Below are positions 6,510 to 31,169 of a DNA stretch of 33,572 nucleotides, piece after piece (position 1 is the first letter of the stretch; every line of letters begins with the position of its first letter). The position numbers and the translations under genes were made by a program. Location: positions 1 through 33,572 of the forward strand of contig JALHSU010000168.1 in the NCBI GenBank assembly GCA_022865345.1, written 5' to 3'. The notes under the pieces are model-generated. The model was not told the DNA's origin, made no database searches, and saw only the letters and a program-made list of their open reading frames with translations. Source of the stretch: Candidatus Zixiibacteriota bacterium (GTDB lineage Bacteria; Zixibacteria; MSB-5A5; RBG-16-43-9).

Positions 6510-6539
6510 TAAATAAAGAACCCGACTTGATTTTGTCAA
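6510..6539 (-). promoter_or_regulatory. Predicted sigma70-type promoter of the TonB-receptor operon
   Basis: Read on the minus strand, TTGACA (6534-6539) is followed after 18 nt by TATTTA (6510-6515). The perfect -35 box is the main support; the -10 box is weak. It predicts a leader of nearly 290 nt before the receptor ATG at 6215. Confidence 0.5.
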
Positions 6540-6753
6540 GAGAAAAATTGCTCACACCCCAAAAAAGTTGTTGGGCTACATAAGATTAATCGGAAAGAAA
6601 GGGGGAAACTTTAGGGGGTAAAGCTGGCACTAAGCAGTCATTACGAGTTCTAAAGACGCGAAGCAACTTACTCACCTGTCATCTGAAGGACTGCCTTATC
6701 ATCTTTAGGGCTTCCCGCAGTGATAACTAAAGAGGCTGTACATCGCGTTATTG

Positions 6754-11007: not shown

Positions 11008-11023
11008 ATTTGTTTTCTTTCTA

Positions 11024-11102
11024 TGTCATTCTGAGGGAACGAAGTGACCGAAGAATCCACACAGATTCTTCGCTCCGCCTTTGGCAGAGCTCAGAATGAC
11101 AA
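11024..11102. repeat. REP/MITE-like palindromic element, copy 1
   Basis: Bounded by TGTCATTCTGAG and its inverse CTCAGAATGACA. An inner inverted pair, GAAGAATC...GATTCTTC, is separated by six bases. A second copy lies at 26078-26179. There is no coding capacity, so any movement would depend on a transposase elsewhere. Confidence 0.7.
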
Positions 11103-11331: not shown

Positions 11332-14028
11332 TTAACTCATTTCCAGCCAGTTTTTCCCTATTTTTATATCCACCTTGATCGGGACTTTTAATTTAACCGT
11401 ATTCTCCATCTTATCCCTTACCATCTCCTTAATTTCCTCCAGCTCCGATTTGTGCACCTCAAATACCAACTCATCGTGCACCTGCAGAATCATTTTGGAT
11501 TTTTTTCTTTTGAGGATTTTAGCTATCTCGATCATAACCACTTTGATTAAATCTGCGGCTGAGCCCTGGTGCGGGGTATTGATGGCGACCCTTTCCGCGA
11601 ACTCTCTTTTCTGCCGATTGGGACTTTCAATTTCCGGGATATACCTTCTTCTTCCTAAAAGCGTGGTGACATACCCATCTTTTCTGGCTTTCTCAATTAA
11701 GTTTTCCAGATGCTCCTGAACTTTAGGGTATCTTTTGAAATAGATATCAATAAACATCGAGGCTTCTTTGGGAGTCATATCAGTCTGCTGGGAGAGCCCG
11801 AACGCGCTTACCCCGTAGATTATGGCAAAATTGGCAGTCTTGGCAACTCTTCTCTGCTCAGGAGCAACCTTGTTTATGGGTACACCGAAGACCTCGCTTG
11901 CGGTTCGGGTATGAATATCCTCGCCTTTGAAAAAAGATTCCATCAAAGTTTCATCTTCTGAGAAATGAGCCAGAATCCTCAGCTCGATCTGAGAATAATC
12001 CGCTGATAACAAAAGATAATCCTCGTTCCTGGGGATAAACCCTTTCCTGATCCGGCTGCCGATCTCGGTTTTGATCGGGATATTCTGTAAATTAGGCTCG
12101 GAGGAGGAAAGCCTTCCAGTTGCAGTCACTGTTTGGTTGAATGAGGTGTGCACTCTGCCGGTCTTTTTGTTGATCAGAGCAGGGAGAGCGTCGATATAGG
12201 TGGATTTCAATTTGAAAAGCTGGCGGTACTCTAAAAGCTTCTGAGGAAGTGGGTGAACCCTGGCTAATTTTTCCAGGACTCCGAAATCAGTAGAATCGAG
12301 GGTTTTTTTAGCTGTTTTTCTAAGGGGGGTCAGTCTTAAATCCTCAAATAAGACCTTGCTCAATTGCTGAGGAGAATTGATGTTGAACTCTTTGCCAGCC
12401 AATTTATAGATCTGCCTGGCAAGTTTTGATAACTCGAGTTCCATCTGTTCGGAAAGCTCTTTCAGGTAATCTACGTCAATTGAAATCCCTGTCATCTCCA
12501 TCTCAGCCAAAACCCGTATCAGAGGCAGCTCCACCTCATAGAAAAGGTTATCCAGAAGAGCCTGCTTTAGCTTAGGCTCCAGCACTTCTTTCAGCCTTAG
12601 AGTAAAATCTGCATCCTCGCAGGAATATCTGGAAGCAGATTTAATCGGAACCTGAGCAAAACTTATCTGTTTTTTCCCGGACCCGATCAAATCCGAGATC
12701 GGCATCATCTTGTAATCTAAATACTCTAAGGCTAAATTGGAGAGGCTGTTCTGTCTTCCGGAGGGATTCAGAAGATAGGAGGCGATCATAGTATCGAAAC
12801 CTATACCTTTAAGCTCGACTCCCTCATTTTTCAGAATCTCTAAATCGAACTTCAAGTTCTGACCGATTTTCGTTATAGATTCGTTTTCTAAAACAGGCTT
12901 GAACTCTTCGAGCAGCAGTTCGATCTTTAGATTTTTACCCTCCGTATGTCTGAGCGGAATGTAAAATGCCTCCTCTTTTTTCAGAGCTATAGATATTCCC
13001 ACTAACTGCGCCACTATCGGGTTTATGGAGGAGGTTTCAGTATCCACTGCGAACTCGCCTTTCTCAACAATCCTGTCAAGAAGCTTCTTGAACTCCTCTT
13101 CATCCTCCACGGTCTTGTATTTGACCTTCTCCAGCTTTTCCCCAGAAGTGACCTCCTGGAGGAATTTGCTGAACTCCAATTCCTTGAAAAGCTCCTTTAA
13201 CTTCGGAAGGTCAAACTCACTTCTGGAAAGCTGTTTTAGATCCAGTTCGATGGGTACATCAGTCTCGATGGTTACTAACTTCTTAGAGAGTCTAGCCAAG
13301 TCTGCATGCTCTTTCAAATTCCGGGAGACATTTTTTCTTTTGACTTTATCTGCATTAGCTAAGACTTTTTCCAGATCTCCGAATTGATGAATTAATTCCA
13401 CAGCGGTTTTTTCACCCACTCCCGGAATCCCTGGAACGTTATCCGAGGCATCCCCCATTAATCCCAGAAGGTCTATAACTTTTTCCGGAGGGATTCCATA
13501 TTTTTCTTTTACCTTTTCCTGGTCATAGACCTCTATCTCCTCTCCGCTTTTCCTCGGATTCAAAACCTTAATATTTTCGTCCACCAACTGTAAAAAGTCC
13601 TTGTCTCCGGTTACCAGAATCACCTCTAAACCTTTATTTTCGGCTTTACGAGCTAAAGTGCCCATCAGATCATCCGCTTCAAATCCCTCCATCTCCAGGA
13701 CGGGAATATTCATCCCCTTAACCAACTCCATTATTCGAGGAAGCTGGGAGACCATCTCATCCGGCATTTTGGCACGGGTAGATTTATATTCTTTGTAGAT
13801 TTCATGCCTGAAAGTTGGGGCTTTAGTATCAAAGACCACCCCGATATAGTCAGGCTCCTCCTCTTTCAGGATTTTAAAAAGGGAATTGGCAAATCCAAAA
13901 GCGGCTGAGGTATTCTCACCTTTGGAATTAATCAGAGGATTTCGGATGAAGGCAAAATAGGATCGATAAGCTAAAGCCGACCCGTCGATTAAGAAAAGGC
14001 GTTTCTTCTTTTTTCCGCTTTCGGACAT
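11332..14028 (-). CDS. polA: DNA polymerase I
   Basis: An 898-aa three-domain polymerase for Okazaki-fragment processing and repair. The 5'-3' exonuclease/flap domain is at about 8-300 ('LIDGSALAYRSYFAF', 'EADDLMGTLAR', 'DASDNVPGIPGVGEKTA'). The 3'-5' exonuclease domain is at about 310-500 and keeps the proofreading residues: DTET in 'FAVDTETSSINP', Asn/Asp in 'GQNLKFDLEIL', and Tyr/Asp in 'SRYSCEDADFTLRL'. The polymerase domain has motif A with D677 in 'SADYSQIELRILAHFS', motif B in 'RRVAKTANFAIIYGVSAFG' and motif C with D852 in 'QVHDELVFE'. All three activities therefore look intact, unlike many Pol I proteins that lost proofreading. Its promoter at 14047-14075 gives a very short leader. 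Confidence 0.96.
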   Translation of the reverse strand: MSESGKKKKRLFLIDGSALAYRSYFAFIRNPLINSKGENTSAAFGFANSLFKILKEEEPDYIGVVFDTKAPTFRHEIYKEYKSTRAKMPDEMVSQLPRIMELVKGMNIPVLEMEGFEADDLMGTLARKAENKGLEVILVTGDKDFLQLVDENIKVLNPRKSGEEIEVYDQEKVKEKYGIPPEKVIDLLGLMGDASDNVPGIPGVGEKTAVELIHQFGDLEKVLANADKVKRKNVSRNLKEHADLARLSKKLVTIETDVPIELDLKQLSRSEFDLPKLKELFKELEFSKFLQEVTSGEKLEKVKYKTVEDEEEFKKLLDRIVEKGEFAVDTETSSINPIVAQLVGISIALKKEEAFYIPLRHTEGKNLKIELLLEEFKPVLENESITKIGQNLKFDLEILKNEGVELKGIGFDTMIASYLLNPSGRQNSLSNLALEYLDYKMMPISDLIGSGKKQISFAQVPIKSASRYSCEDADFTLRLKEVLEPKLKQALLDNLFYEVELPLIRVLAEMEMTGISIDVDYLKELSEQMELELSKLARQIYKLAGKEFNINSPQQLSKVLFEDLRLTPLRKTAKKTLDSTDFGVLEKLARVHPLPQKLLEYRQLFKLKSTYIDALPALINKKTGRVHTSFNQTVTATGRLSSSEPNLQNIPIKTEIGSRIRKGFIPRNEDYLLLSADYSQIELRILAHFSEDETLMESFFKGEDIHTRTASEVFGVPINKVAPEQRRVAKTANFAIIYGVSAFGLSQQTDMTPKEASMFIDIYFKRYPKVQEHLENLIEKARKDGYVTTLLGRRRYIPEIESPNRQKREFAERVAINTPHQGSAADLIKVVMIEIAKILKRKKSKMILQVHDELVFEVHKSELEEIKEMVRDKMENTVKLKVPIKVDIKIGKNWLEMS

Positions 14029-14046: not shown

Positions 14047-14075
14047 ATGATACTATTAAATTTGTTTCAGGTCAA
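14047..14075 (-). promoter_or_regulatory. Predicted sigma70-type promoter of polA
   Basis: Minus strand TTGACC (14070-14075), 17-nt spacer, TATCAT (14047-14052). The predicted start site is only about a dozen bases before the polA ATG, so the leader would be nearly absent. Confidence 0.6.
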
Positions 14076-14140
14076 TAAGTTTGTGGGAATTTCCCCTTTG
14101 ATTTACAAGAAGTTAGCCCCTCTCTACAGGCTTTTGTTTC

Positions 14141-14266
14141 AATTTTGTTTCAATTGGGGTTGGGTTATTATGGGTTTTCTTGGGTTATGATGGGTCTTGA
14201 GGAATCCAGGTAAACTCTTGACTATCTATCTAATACGCTGAAAAACAAGGGGTTCCCACGCCCCCT
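14141..14266. repeat. 125-bp direct repeat A with G-quadruplex-like decamer array
   Basis: Shares with repeat B (16804-16928) an opening AATTTTGTTTCAATTGG, a G-rich decamer array, then GAGG, GCTGAAA and a closing GGGTTCCC(A/G)CGCCCCC. GGG triplets at 14162, 14172, 14182 and 14192 are exactly 10 nt apart, with 7-nt loops TTATTAT, TTTTCTT and TTATGAT; a fifth G-run lies just before. Together A and B bracket the subtilase gene. Confidence 0.75.
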
Positions 14267-14275
14267 AAATTTTAC

Positions 14276-14557: not shown

Positions 14558-16351
14558 ATGAAAAAGTTGTTCTTCTGGTTGCTGTTGTCAGGAGTAGTGC
14601 TGGCAATGCTGATGGGCGGTTGTTCCAAGCAAACCCAAAAGATCACGGGACCCCAAGCACAACTGGCTCCTTTGTTCAACCAAACTCCGGGGGCAAAATA
14701 TATTCCTGGTTCCTATATCGTGGTGTTTAAGGAATCAGTTGCAGATGTAGACAAAGACGTGGATGAGATCGGTCAGCGGTATACTCTCAAAGCGGATTTT
14801 CGCTACAAGCATGCTCTCAAAGGATTTGCAGGGAAGCTTTCCCCTGCCGTGGTCGAGGCATTACGGAACGATCCGCGCATCGCCTACATAGAGCAGGATC
14901 AGATAGCGCATATGGATGCTACCCAGACTAATCCTACCTGGGGACTGGATCGGATCGATCAGCGGGCCCTTCCTCTGGACAACTCCTATACCTACAACCA
15001 AACCGGTGCTGGAGTTGATGTGTATTGTCTCGATACCGGCATCCGATTCACGCACGTGGACTTTGGCGGCCGTGCGGTTACCGGTTATGACGCCATCACA
15101 ACGGGCGGTACAGCGGCGGATGGCAATGGCCACGGTACGCACACTGCGGGCACGATTGGCGGGGCGACCTATGGCGTTGCTAAGGCTGTTAGCCTGATCG
15201 CCGTCCGCGTGCTGGACGACACTGGCCACGGCACGTACGCTCAGGTGATTGCCGGGGTCGATTGGGTAACAGGAGATCACACCACTACTCCTGCGGTCGC
15301 CAACATGTCCCTCGGCGGGCCCCTGGATGCGGCGCTCGACCAGGCCGTCAGGAATTCGATTGCCGATGGGGTGACTTATTGCGTGTCCGCCGGAAACTTG
15401 TCAGCCGATGCCTCGACTCAGTCGCCTGCTGACGTCGGTGAGGCGCTCACCGTGGGCGCGACCAACAACTCCGATGCGTTCGCCTATTTCTCGAACTACG
15501 GAAGCATCGTTGACGTTCAGGCTCCCGGGGTCAACGTCACGTCGGACTATTACACCTCGGACATTGCAACAACGACCATGTCAGGCACGTCGATGGCCGC
15601 TCCGCACGTGGCGGGCGCAGCCGCTCTGTACCTCGAAGCGAACCCCACTGCGACGCCTGCCTCGGTTCACAACGCCATAATCGGCAATGCCACGACCGGC
15701 GTGATTACCAGTCTTCCCATGGGGACGGCCAACAGGCTTCTCTACTCGATCATCAGCACGACGCCCCCGGTTGTACCCGCGCCTCCTGTACTGAGCTCTC
15801 CCGCGAACGGCGCAACCGGCGTGACGCTTCCTGTCGCTTTCTCGTGGAATGCGTCTTTTGGCGCGACATCCTACCGGGTCCAGGTCTCCACCAGCTCGGC
15901 ATTCACTACGACCGTGTACGATCACGCTGGCATCAGCTCGACCTCGGTGAGCGTTTCCGGGCTGGCCCCCAGCACGCTGTATTACTGGCGCGTGAACGCG
16001 ACCAACGCGGCCGGCACGAGCAACTGGTCTACGGTCCGGAGCTTCACGACAGGCACAGGCATGGGTCCTGCGGCGCCCACGCTCGTGTCCCCGGCCAACG
16101 GTGCGAACAACGTGCCGAGATCTCCGACGCTTACGTGGAATGCGTCTTCTGGCGCGACGTCCTATCGCGTCCAGGTGTGTTGGGACCAGTCGTTTAATAC
16201 GAACGTGTATGATCGATCCGGCATCACGTCGACCTCGACGGTTGTCACCGGGCTTGCTGGCAAGACGCTCCATTACTGGCGCGTGAACGCGACCAACGCG
16301 AACGGTACGAGCAAATGGTCCACGACCTGGTCGTTCACAACCAGGAAATGA
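14558..16351 (+). CDS. S8 (subtilisin/proteinase K-like) peptidase lipoprotein with two Fn3-like repeats
   Basis: A 597-aa secreted serine protease. Residues 1-22 are a lipoprotein-type signal ending in MLMGGC. Residues about 48-120 are an inhibitor I9 propeptide ('GSYIVVFKESV', 'KGFAGKLSPAVVEALRNDP', 'IAYIEQDQ'). The catalytic domain runs from about 125 to 395 and has Asp159 ('YCLDTGIRFTH'), His192 ('GNGHGTHTAGTIGG'), oxyanion Asn280 ('SAGN') and Ser345 ('MSGTSMAAPHVAGAAALYL'). It most resembles the aqualysin/proteinase K branch. Two tandem Fn3-like domains of about 97 residues close the protein and are nearly identical over long stretches of DNA. Base composition changes sharply inside the gene: 24 of 60 bases are G/C at 14701-14760 against 40 of 60 at 15301-15360. 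This suggests a chimeric or recently acquired gene. It is followed by a strong terminator and has no operon partners. Confidence 0.93.
   Translation: MKKLFFWLLLSGVVLAMLMGGCSKQTQKITGPQAQLAPLFNQTPGAKYIPGSYIVVFKESVADVDKDVDEIGQRYTLKADFRYKHALKGFAGKLSPAVVEALRNDPRIAYIEQDQIAHMDATQTNPTWGLDRIDQRALPLDNSYTYNQTGAGVDVYCLDTGIRFTHVDFGGRAVTGYDAITTGGTAADGNGHGTHTAGTIGGATYGVAKAVSLIAVRVLDDTGHGTYAQVIAGVDWVTGDHTTTPAVANMSLGGPLDAALDQAVRNSIADGVTYCVSAGNLSADASTQSPADVGEALTVGATNNSDAFAYFSNYGSIVDVQAPGVNVTSDYYTSDIATTTMSGTSMAAPHVAGAAALYLEANPTATPASVHNAIIGNATTGVITSLPMGTANRLLYSIISTTPPVVPAPPVLSSPANGATGVTLPVAFSWNASFGATSYRVQVSTSSAFTTTVYDHAGISSTSVSVSGLAPSTLYYWRVNATNAAGTSNWSTVRSFTTGTGMGPAAPTLVSPANGANNVPRSPTLTWNASSGATSYRVQVCWDQSFNTNVYDRSGITSTSTVVTGLAGKTLHYWRVNATNANGTSKWSTTWSFTTRK
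15845..16337 (+). repeat. Tandem 291-bp (97-codon) duplication inside the subtilase gene
   Basis: TGGAATGCGTCTTNTGGCGC occurs at 15845 and again at 16136, 291 bp apart. A second matched block, ATTACTGGCGCGTGAACGCG, recurs at the same offset. The two units encode the two Fn3-like domains, and the high DNA identity points to a recent in-frame duplication. Confidence 0.75.
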
Positions 16352-16527: not shown

Positions 16528-16599
16528 TTTCCGGTAACTCACTGGTAGAGTGAGCGTCTGTTAACCGTCAAGTTGCAGGTTTGAGCTCTGCCCGAGGAG
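16528..16599 (+). pseudogene. Degenerate tRNA-Asn (anticodon GTT)
   Basis: The 72-nt stretch aligns end to end with a bacterial tRNA-Asn. The D arm is intact (ACTC/GAGT around ACTGGTA), the anticodon loop is CTGTTAA with GTT at its centre, the T stem is GCAGG/TCTGC, and the 3' acceptor strand is CCGAGGA plus discriminator G. The 5' acceptor strand TTTCCGG no longer pairs cleanly (one mismatch, two wobbles). The anticodon stem AGCGT/CCGTC has mismatches at both ends, and the T loop reads TTTGAGC instead of TTCGA-type. No CCA is encoded. These changes make a functional tRNA unlikely. A relic tRNA beside a foreign-looking gene is a classic sign of an integration site, but no integrase is in view. 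Confidence 0.7.
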
Positions 16600-16769
16600 T
16601 TTTCACTTTTTTCGCGTAATTCAATGTTCGCTACTCTATTGTACCTGACGTTTTCCCAACCTGAAAATCTTCTCACACCCTGTGCCTGCTGAAATGCGAC
16701 CGTTAGTAAGGTTTCCCCATAAAATCCCGTAGAGATTCTCTCAGGCAGATGTAATTTTGCACAAATAGG

Positions 16770-16794
16770 GATAGGGGGACGCTACCCCCCTATC
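16770..16794. repeat. G-rich intergenic hairpin
   Basis: GATAGGGGG (16770-16778) pairs with CCCCCTATC (16786-16794), a perfect 9-bp stem with a 7-nt loop, ten bases before direct repeat B. It lacks a clean T-tract, so a terminator role is uncertain. Confidence 0.5.
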
Positions 16795-16803
16795 TCCTGT
16801 TTA

Positions 16804-16928
16804 AATTTTGTTTCAATTGGAGTTGGGTTTTCTTGGGTTATGATGGGTTATTATGGGTATCGAGGTAATTGGCTAATTTGTTGTTAATCTTGTTAATAGG
16901 CTGAAACACAAGGGTTCCCGCGCCCCCT
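16804..16928. repeat. 125-bp direct repeat B with G-quadruplex-like decamer array
   Basis: Second copy of the repeat at 14141-14266, in the same orientation. GGG triplets at 16825, 16835, 16845 and 16855 keep the exact 10-nt period. The three loops are those of copy A in rotated order (TTTTCTT, TTATGAT, TTATTAT), so the internal array has shifted by one decamer. Confidence 0.75.
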
Positions 16929-16960
16929 TTTTTGTTGCAGATCAATAAATTCATATTGGC

Positions 16961-19560: not shown

Positions 19561-19683
19561 GTAGAGACGCATCGCATGCGTCTCCACGCCTTTGGAGTGC
19601 ATCGTCCGTGTCGATGCCGAAGCAGGAGCGAACCTATGTGTTCGCTCCGATTTATTCGGACAGACATAGGGGTCTGCCCCTAC
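19561..19683. repeat. Cluster of four GTAG-type intergenic hairpins
   Basis: Four consecutive palindromes: GAGACGCATCGCATGCGTCTC, GCATCG...CGATGC, GGAGCGAAC...GTTCGCTCC, and GGACAGAC...GTCTGCCCC. The cluster opens with GTAG and closes with CTAC. It starts 9 nt after the S41 stop codon. Confidence 0.7.
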
Positions 19684-24656: not shown

Positions 24657-24688
24657 ATCATCATTACCTTTGAAACTTAAATTCAAAT

Positions 24689-24713
24689 GGACAGAACGAT
24701 GTTCTGTCCCTAC
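24689..24713. repeat. GTAG-type intergenic hairpin
   Basis: GGACAGAAC-GAT-GTTCTGTCC followed by CTAC; on the minus strand GTAGGGACAGAACATCG. A perfect 9-bp stem between rimO and the MNT gene. Confidence 0.65.
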
Positions 24714-24717
24714 AGAG

Positions 24718-29361: not shown

Positions 29362-30849
29362 TTAGCAAGGAGGTGGAGATCCACCTTTTAATAGATAATT
29401 TATAAGATAAACCACATCAGAAATGGATACTTTCCCGTCACAGTTGGCATCTCCTGATCCTGAAGGATTCGAAGCAGGTCCATACCTAAAAAGATAATTG
29501 ATTAGGTAAACTATATCTGAAACGTCCCGTTGTTTATCACCATTCGTATCTCCGCGCATAAAAAAATTAATATATTTAATAGTAGCATAGTCACCTAACC
29601 CTATTATACCATAACTGCAACCAGTTACATAGACATTACCATAATTATCTGTTGTAATGGAATAAGATTTGTCATCCAAGTTTCCAGGCCCGTTGTATCT
29701 CCTCACTCCAATTTCATTTCCATACGAGTCATACTTTATTGTGGCATAGTCATAGTTGGCGTTTGGCCAAATCCAATTTTGGGAACTATATCCAGTCACA
29801 TAAACATTACCAGAATCATCTGCTACCATAGCTAAAGCCACATCCCAGTAATTTCCCGGTCCATTATATCTTCTTACCCATGCAGTATCTCCATTAGTAT
29901 AATACTTTACAGTAGCGTAGTCGTGCGATGTATGGTCACCCCAACTATAGCCAGTCACATAGATATTATTGAAACCGTCTATGGCTATAGCAGTAGCATA
30001 ATCATAATAATAAGGATTCCCCGTACCGTTATATCTTCTTACCCAGGCAGTATCACCATTCGGATAATACTTTATAGTAATATAGTCATCCTGACCTCCG
30101 GTCACACACACATTGTCAGAACCGTCGAGAGCTAGAGCAACACCACCCCAGGACCTGACCCATAACTCTTCTCCTTCTGCATTGTATTTTATCGTCCCAG
30201 TTGTCCCACTCACATAAACATTGTTAGAGTCATCAACGGCTATTGCGAACGCATCGTCTTCGGAGTAGTCTGGACCGTTGTATCTGCGCAACCAAGCAGT
30301 ATCTCCATTGGAATGATACTTTATAGTAGCATAGTCATAGCCTGTGGTATCGCCCATACTGGCTCCTGTAACATAAGCGTTACCATAACCATCCACGGTA
30401 ATAGCAAGAGCTTTATCCTGTAAGTTCCCCGGTCCATTATATTTTCTGACCCAGGCTGTGTCTCCATTAGGATAATACTTTATGGTAAGGTAATCCCAGT
30501 ATGTCGCATTGCCCCAACTCACTCCAGTCACGAAGACGTTACCATATCCATCTATAGCAATAGCATAAGCTTCCTCCCAGTCACATGATGGTCCATTGTA
30601 TCTTCTCACCCAAGCAGTATCTCCATTAGGATAATACTTTATCGTAACACAATCATAGTTTGTTCCGATGCCGTAACTTCTCCCAGTCGTATAAACATTA
30701 CCAGAATCATCTACGACTATTGCATTAGCTGCATCATAGTCATTCGCTTGCCCATTAAATCTTCTCACCCAAGCAGTATCCAAAGACTGAGTAAAAGCAG
30801 GCAACGTCAAAAATAAAATCAAGAAAAACATCAAGAGGATTCTAACCAA
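29362..30849 (-). CDS. Secreted SBBP-repeat beta-propeller protein with C-terminal dockerin
   Basis: A 495-aa exported protein. The signal peptide is 'LLMFFLILFLTLPAFTQS'. The start is taken as the TTG at 30849, because the first ATG (30831) would remove the basic n-region and has no ribosome site; this is uncertain. Residues about 23-430 are eight SBBP (seven-bladed beta-propeller-type) repeats built on 'DTAWVRRYNGP', 'AIAIDGYGNVYVTG' and 'DYATIKYYPNG'; repeats 4 and 5 are clearly shortened. Residues about 433-495 form a dockerin with two calcium-binding loops ('GDTNGDKQRDVSDIVYLINY' and 'GDANCDGKVSISDVVYLINY'). Dockerins bind cohesins in secreted complexes; no cohesin is in this window. It is a single-gene unit with its own promoter and terminator. 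Confidence 0.88.
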   Translation of the reverse strand: MVRILLMFFLILFLTLPAFTQSLDTAWVRRFNGQANDYDAANAIVVDDSGNVYTTGRSYGIGTNYDCVTIKYYPNGDTAWVRRYNGPSCDWEEAYAIAIDGYGNVFVTGVSWGNATYWDYLTIKYYPNGDTAWVRKYNGPGNLQDKALAITVDGYGNAYVTGASMGDTTGYDYATIKYHSNGDTAWLRRYNGPDYSEDDAFAIAVDDSNNVYVSGTTGTIKYNAEGEELWVRSWGGVALALDGSDNVCVTGGQDDYITIKYYPNGDTAWVRRYNGTGNPYYYDYATAIAIDGFNNIYVTGYSWGDHTSHDYATVKYYTNGDTAWVRRYNGPGNYWDVALAMVADDSGNVYVTGYSSQNWIWPNANYDYATIKYDSYGNEIGVRRYNGPGNLDDKSYSITTDNYGNVYVTGCSYGIIGLGDYATIKYINFFMRGDTNGDKQRDVSDIVYLINYLFRYGPASNPSGSGDANCDGKVSISDVVYLINYLLKGGSPPPC

Positions 30850-31111: not shown

Positions 31112-31169
31112 ACCTCACAGCATCCTTCAATGACTTCCCGACCTCACAGCATCCTTCAAAGATTTCCCG
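31112..31169. repeat. 29-bp tandem duplication at the 3' end of the HU gene
   Basis: Units 31112-31140 and 31141-31169 both begin ACCTCACAGCATCCTTCAA and differ at only two of 29 positions. Because 29 is not a multiple of three, the second pass is read in another frame and gives a new stop. Confidence 0.9.

Follow-up and report, generated by a model that had tools for sequence, protein, structure and literature searches.

Helically phased GGG arrays as probable excisionase sites of integrase attachment sites in a Candidatus Zixiibacteriota genome

The window analyzed here, a stretch of 33,572 nucleotides of Candidatus Zixiibacteriota DNA, carries upstream of polA an insert of 2.87 kb (~2.9 kb) with a GC-rich subtilase cargo and no integrase, bounded by two copies of a repeat that contains a GGG array. 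Its left limit is an 18-bp sequence (TTTGTTTCAGGTCAATAA, 14061..14078) that is directly repeated at the right limit; we propose it as the attL core, and it occupies the empty-site position ahead of polA. Repeat A follows on the + strand, with a tandem of an 11-bp motif (motif pair A, TGTTTCAATTTTGTTTCAA, 14135..14153; TRF period 11), an array of four TGGG units at 10-bp steps (array A, 14161..14195) and a conserved tail (AAGGGGTTCCCACGCCCCC, 14249..14267). The cargo gene (14558..16351, +) encodes a secreted subtilase with Peptidase_S8, I9 propeptide and fn3-type repeats in Pfam, and in the GC profile its stretch reaches ~62% GC versus ~43% in the surroundings. Further on lies a second, decayed copy of tRNA-Asn (16528..16599, +), which is called by Rfam (tRNA, 31.7 bits) and not by ARAGORN, and which agrees at 62/68 positions with the intact tRNA-Asn on contig C214. 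A G/C-rich hairpin (GGGATAGGGGG ... CCCCCCTATCTCC, 16768..16797, +) then directly precedes motif pair B (TGTTTAAATTTTGTTTCAA, 16798..16816, +), which has one mismatch and is followed by array B, again four TGGG units at 10-bp steps (16824..16858, +), by its conserved tail (AAGGGTTCCCGCGCCCCC, 16910..16928, +) and by the right copy of the 18-bp repeat (TTTGTTGCAGATCAATAA, 16931..16948), the proposed attR core. Several other motif-pair copies have a hairpin of different sequence at the equivalent position. We propose the two motif pairs as arm-type sites of an integrase and the two arrays as sites of a recombination directionality factor (RDF, or excisionase). Neither an integrase, with Pfam included, nor an RDF gene was found in the insert.

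The GGG feature of the window is real and non-random. The pattern GGG(N7GGG)x3 occurs at 14162-14194 and 16825-16857, in both cases on the + strand, whereas its expectation is 0.02 per shuffled window and two arrays arose in 0/100 shuffles. The exact 10-nt spacing, together with the loop words and their order (TTATTAT-TTTTCTT-TTATGAT in copy A and TTTTCTT-TTATGAT-TTATTAT in copy B), bears out the description in the initial annotation. That annotation also took the changed loop order as a sign of slippage or rotation of the array. The order does differ, but the TGGG offsets are equal in both copies; therefore, the array has not moved, its start and register are fixed, and the apparent rotation is a shift by one 10-bp unit. 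These offsets of 8, 18, 28 and 38 from the end of the motif pair are shared by both window copies, C156:13886, C204:11705 and an array of a relative (G005:C4). Each window array is held within a longer direct repeat (14135-14256 and 16798-16919, 75% identical; 77% over 131 bp in a second alignment). A genome-wide look for further copies, which had been suggested as a check, did find them: the whole 2.86-Mb genome has four GGG(N7GGG)x3 arrays, two in the window and the others at C156:13913 and C204:11732. All four are directly preceded by, and stand on the same side of, a tandem pair of the 11-bp motif (TTTTGTTTCAA or TTTGTGCCAA type), the pairs being of the TGTTTCAATTTTGTTTCAA or TGTGCCAAATTTGTGCCAA type, allowing for the single mismatch of pair B.

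The two copies of the 18-bp repeat enclose repeat A, the subtilase gene, the decayed tRNA-Asn copy and repeat B, and agree at 16/18 positions, a value reached in 0/300 shuffles of the flanks. In two relatives (G001 and G002), the polA-upstream sequence is present once and the insert is absent. Both lack a stretch longer than the insert, from 14079 to about 19624-19682. The segment 16949-19624 encodes a MarR-GNAT protein and an S41 peptidase, a pair that is missing here in G001 and G002 and is found elsewhere in G003 and G009. Since the two genes occur as a unit in the latter genomes, this module may have been inserted separately here or lost from the relatives. In G002, which belongs to the same genus, the polA-upstream locus (L303:1806-4053, on G002:C104) holds a different insert, and the site is a hotspot; the gene of that insert is presumably FG-GAP-like and ends in what look like dockerin-like repeats. 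A tRNA-derived core was also considered for the window copies and rejected: the window core matched no tRNA of its own genome above the shuffled level, the tail AAGGGGTTCCCACGCCCCC of repeat A had no match among those tRNAs, and the 18-bp repeat was found instead.

The motif pair extends well beyond this locus. A degenerate pattern for it retrieved eight copies in the genome, a count that leaves aside the mismatched pair B and in which the C271 copy is the same DNA as the C156 copy because of a contig overlap. In the search of relatives, 11/59 genomes (this one counted) had the pair, and in one of them (G010:C40) a pair of the window type is flanked by an integrase gene and the 3' end of tRNA-Met. 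The exact 19-mer TGTGCCAAATTTGTGCCAA occurs at 97 loci in genome_contigs, in hosts that include Zixibacteria, Nitrosomonas, Lactococcus, Streptococcus, Chlamydiae and others. Within 300 bp of it there is a tRNA at 53/97 loci, a tyrosine integrase at 30/97 and either of them at 65/97, compared with 7.0%, 8.1% and 13.1%, respectively, at positions drawn at random from these loci. In viral contigs, a tRNA or integrase is near 18 of the 26 exact 19-mer sites, and a pattern joining the TGTTTCAA type to the start of the array had no match. This distribution suggests that the motif marks attachment sites of tyrosine integrases; it behaves as expected of arm-type sites, which the integrase would bind. 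Titles and abstracts among the matches listed do not describe the motif (searched as TGTGCCA with attP and integrase and as TTTGTGCC with integrase).

A fuller version of the layout is found at an apparent tRNA-fMet island of the same genome. Contig C271 carries a tyrosine integrase gene (12221-13288) with a motif pair within its 3' end; next to the pair lies a displaced piece of tRNA-fMet, 45 nt that match the 3' half of that gene exactly. At its opposite end, C271 shares an exact 141-bp overlap with the start of C156. Contigs that adjoin at a repeat commonly overlap in this way; hence, the join is likely, though unproven. C156 carries a motif pair, a GGG array and an intact tRNA-fMet gene at what appears to be the other end of the island, so that, with the join via the 141-bp overlap, equal arm-type repeats stand at both ends (C271:13248-13266 and C156:13886-13904). 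An HTH_17 protein of 70 residues is encoded on C271 as well (6514-6726), and its best PHROG is PHROG 66, "excisionase and transcriptional regulator" (E 1.3e-7), which makes it the island's candidate RDF; HTH_17 gave three hits in the genome, two of them above the cut-off. Core duplications recur across these sites, with the 45 nt of tRNA-fMet at the island, 24 nt identical to the tRNA-His 3' end at the terminus of the C204 copy and the 18-bp repeat in the window. The distance from the array to the core is also similar, as 73 bp separate the final GGG of array B from the right core of the window and the tRNA-His copy on C204 has 76 bp at the corresponding place. On a single contig of a relative (G005:C68), the order is integrase, motif pair, tRNA-Met relic, cargo, motif pair, GGG array and tRNA-Met relic, and the integrase is 80% identical to that of C271. 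At this locus (L061, reverse strand), the tRNA-Met relics at the two ends of the cargo have a T-arm-region insertion in common, which looks like the result of copying one end.

Across related arrays, the period is kept and the word is not. We compared 19 arrays from this genome and its relatives, a set that omits C271:75 (the same DNA as C156:49), C95:5 (the C204 end), the integrase-side pairs G052:C17, G010:C232 and G010:C40, and G047:C3, a pair without an array. Four GGG at 10-nt steps are present in 5/19. Three arrays of genome G026 have the strongest period 10, at z scores of 7.0, 8.6 and 8.7, with zero GGG, and in several relatives the first one or two units read TATG, TACG, TATA or TAGG. 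The arrays of three other copies in the genome (C156:49, 2342 and 6462) are broken, and both window arrays have all four units intact and in register. Retention of the period where GGG is lost favors what the initial annotation had entertained as its alternative, namely, a series of protein-binding sites that all face one side of the B-DNA helix. The G026 loci (L055, L056 and L057) are element ends in which a five-unit 10-bp array of the TTGGTAAAAA/TAGATAAAGA type is followed by a core resembling a tRNA 3' end.

In other bacteria, too, the flanks of the 19-mer show an excess of this periodicity, with a combined Z of 5.9 upstream and 4.4 downstream after de-duplication at 75% identity (88 and 85 flanks remaining from 97). 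Since the combined Z of control flanks also rose as high as 5.2 (at period 6), counting strongly periodic flanks is safer than pooling Z: a period-10 Z above 3 was obtained for 10/88 upstream and 8/85 downstream flanks, as opposed to 1/96 and 0/96 controls. The 10-bp words differ among these flanks (TTGCAC, TCGC, GCAC, GGTAAA and TGGG). The enrichment did not recur in viral contigs: 0/12 upstream and 0/14 downstream flanks of the exact 19-mer exceeded a Z of 3, most of these sites being on the integrase side, and the degenerate pattern, whose matches there are mostly due to chance, gave period-10 Z scores of -1.1 and 2.5.

We consider that the array is probably a helically phased row of sites for an excisionase. 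It has the geometry of such a row, with period 10, offsets of 8/18/28/38 and a position between the motif pair and the right core, which starts 73 bp farther on. The GGG arrays would thereby belong to attR-type arms of tRNA-targeting integrative elements with lambda-type tyrosine integrases. The arm-type site of the integrase would be the tandem TGTTTCAA/TGTGCCAA motif, and the 10-bp array between this motif and the crossover core would be the row of binding sites for the RDF of the element, predicted to be of the HTH_17 type. On such a row, the excisionase would line up head to tail on one helix face, bend the arm and help the integrase to excise the element.

The proposed arrangement has precedents. 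According to PMC4880445, the X1-X1.5-X2 excisionase sites of phage lambda lie in the P arm between arm-type and core-type sites, and lambda attR (P2, X1-X1.5-X2, H2, core), with Xis, offers the same order of arm-type sites, phased excisionase sites and core. Lambda has three units, whereas the arrays described here comprise four or five 10-bp units with other site words, a tRNA or intergenic core and a candidate RDF of the HTH_17 type. RDFs generally recognize direct repeats spaced by one turn of the helix, and in phage 186 the RDF Apl binds cooperatively to five direct repeats at att spaced in 10- to 11-bp steps (PMC7498355); our arrays are alike in placing direct repeats at helical pitch at att and differ in sequence and candidate RDF. 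According to PMC11963761, RdfS forms filaments with no apparent consensus site; therefore, the words of RDF sites need not be strict. The kind of site would thus be an already known one, an ordinary att/RDF site, and the novelty lies in its occurrence in a little-studied lineage.

Regarding the insert itself, the 18-bp repeats and motif pairs at both ends and a cargo without an integrase fit either a cis-mobilizable element or a relic. According to PMC3146451, cis-mobilizable elements (CIMEs) and the tandem ssrA islands of Dehalococcoides likewise have cargo between att repeats without an integrase and are possibly mobilized by the integrase of a neighbor; the latter use a serine recombinase, and the window insert is intergenic, upstream of polA. 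Islander-type tRNA islands with tyrosine integrases share the duplication of a tRNA 3'-end core and an integrase adjoining one end, as opposed to the window insert, which has no integrase and is not at a tRNA. The genome does encode a candidate integrase for mobilization in trans. The insert would be movable only by such a trans-supplied enzyme, or it may be a fixed relic. Both of its ends bear the array, whereas an att model predicts an array at just one of them; the second array could stem from a former tandem arrangement.

That the window copies are inert att relics without a present function has somewhat less than even chances in our judgment and is compatible with the excisionase-site reading. 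The missing integrase, the mismatch in pair B, the decay of the tRNA-Asn copy and the three broken arrays elsewhere in the genome all speak for it. On the other hand, both window arrays have stayed intact and in register, the flanking 18-bp repeat still matches at 16/18 positions, and an integrase with related arm motifs is available in trans.

Excisionase sites are the most likely assignment of the array, followed by a second class of arm-type sites of the integrase itself, contacted by its N-terminal domain. We regard this latter assignment as unlikely. It would account for the location of the array within an att arm in fixed register with the motif pair, and the arm-type sites of lambda all belong to integrase; yet, TGGGTTWTNN, the array unit, bears no resemblance to the TGTTTCAA/TGTGCCAA motif found at both element ends, and the word varies among elements that have this motif in common. 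Moreover, in the islands examined, the array sits at the end distant from the integrase gene, and the 18 array-bearing loci taken from the flank-periodicity results are rarer beside integrase genes (2/30 versus 16/67, p = 0.05, Fisher test).

The initial annotation had been titled as a G-quadruplex candidate. Both window copies and three more do offer the four G3 tracts of quadruplex motifs, here with 7-nt loops, but a function as such a structure, in DNA or in the transcript, appears very improbable. Quadruplex formation does not need an exact 10-bp step, and the four tracts are absent from most of the 19 arrays, including those of G026 with their GGG-free period and those with altered first units. 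As the G tracts are unconserved and the period is conserved, we rejected the quadruplex as the main reading.

Even less probable is a dispersed MITE-like repeat family or host regulator site unrelated to recombination, which the eight motif-pair copies in one genome, several between ordinary genes, might suggest, but which is at odds with the integrase/tRNA association at 65/97 loci across bacteria and with exact tRNA 3'-end cores at copies in this genome. CRISPR-like repeats, brought to mind by the word GTTTCAAT, were likewise set aside once the motif was seen to lie next to integrases and tRNAs. Integron attC sites, suggested by the cassette-like layout, were another reading considered.

With the array read as a row of excisionase sites, an apparent G-quadruplex becomes a readable recombination site, and the presence of a GC-rich protease gene upstream of polA would be explained. 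A tandem TGTKYCAA pair plus a 10-bp array could provide a simple DNA signature for the ends of integrated elements, even integrase-less ones, in phyla that have received little study. Should the array word turn out to track the excisionase, sequence data would suffice to match directionality factors to their sites. The generality of element-specific 10-bp words beside one arm motif merits further investigation. Tentatively, and with the odds against it, we envisage that a widespread integrase family shares the TGTGCCAA/TGTTTCAA arm motif while the element-specific 10-bp word names the excisionase of each element, and that in this Zixibacterium integrase-less, att-bounded cargo is moved in trans by the fMet island's integrase and excisionase, which would amount to a cassette system on lambda-type att sites.

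Other repeats were observed in the window. Tandem repeats of 159 bp occupy positions 30431-30780 within the gene 29362-30849, which encodes a repeat protein with what we take to be a dockerin-like C terminus and has similar genes on C156, C271 and C95. Short intergenic repeats at 24685-24714 and 11022-11057 have several copies in contigs of relatives, and a 29-bp tandem duplication (93% match) spans 31112-31169 at the 3' end of an HU/IHF-looking gene.
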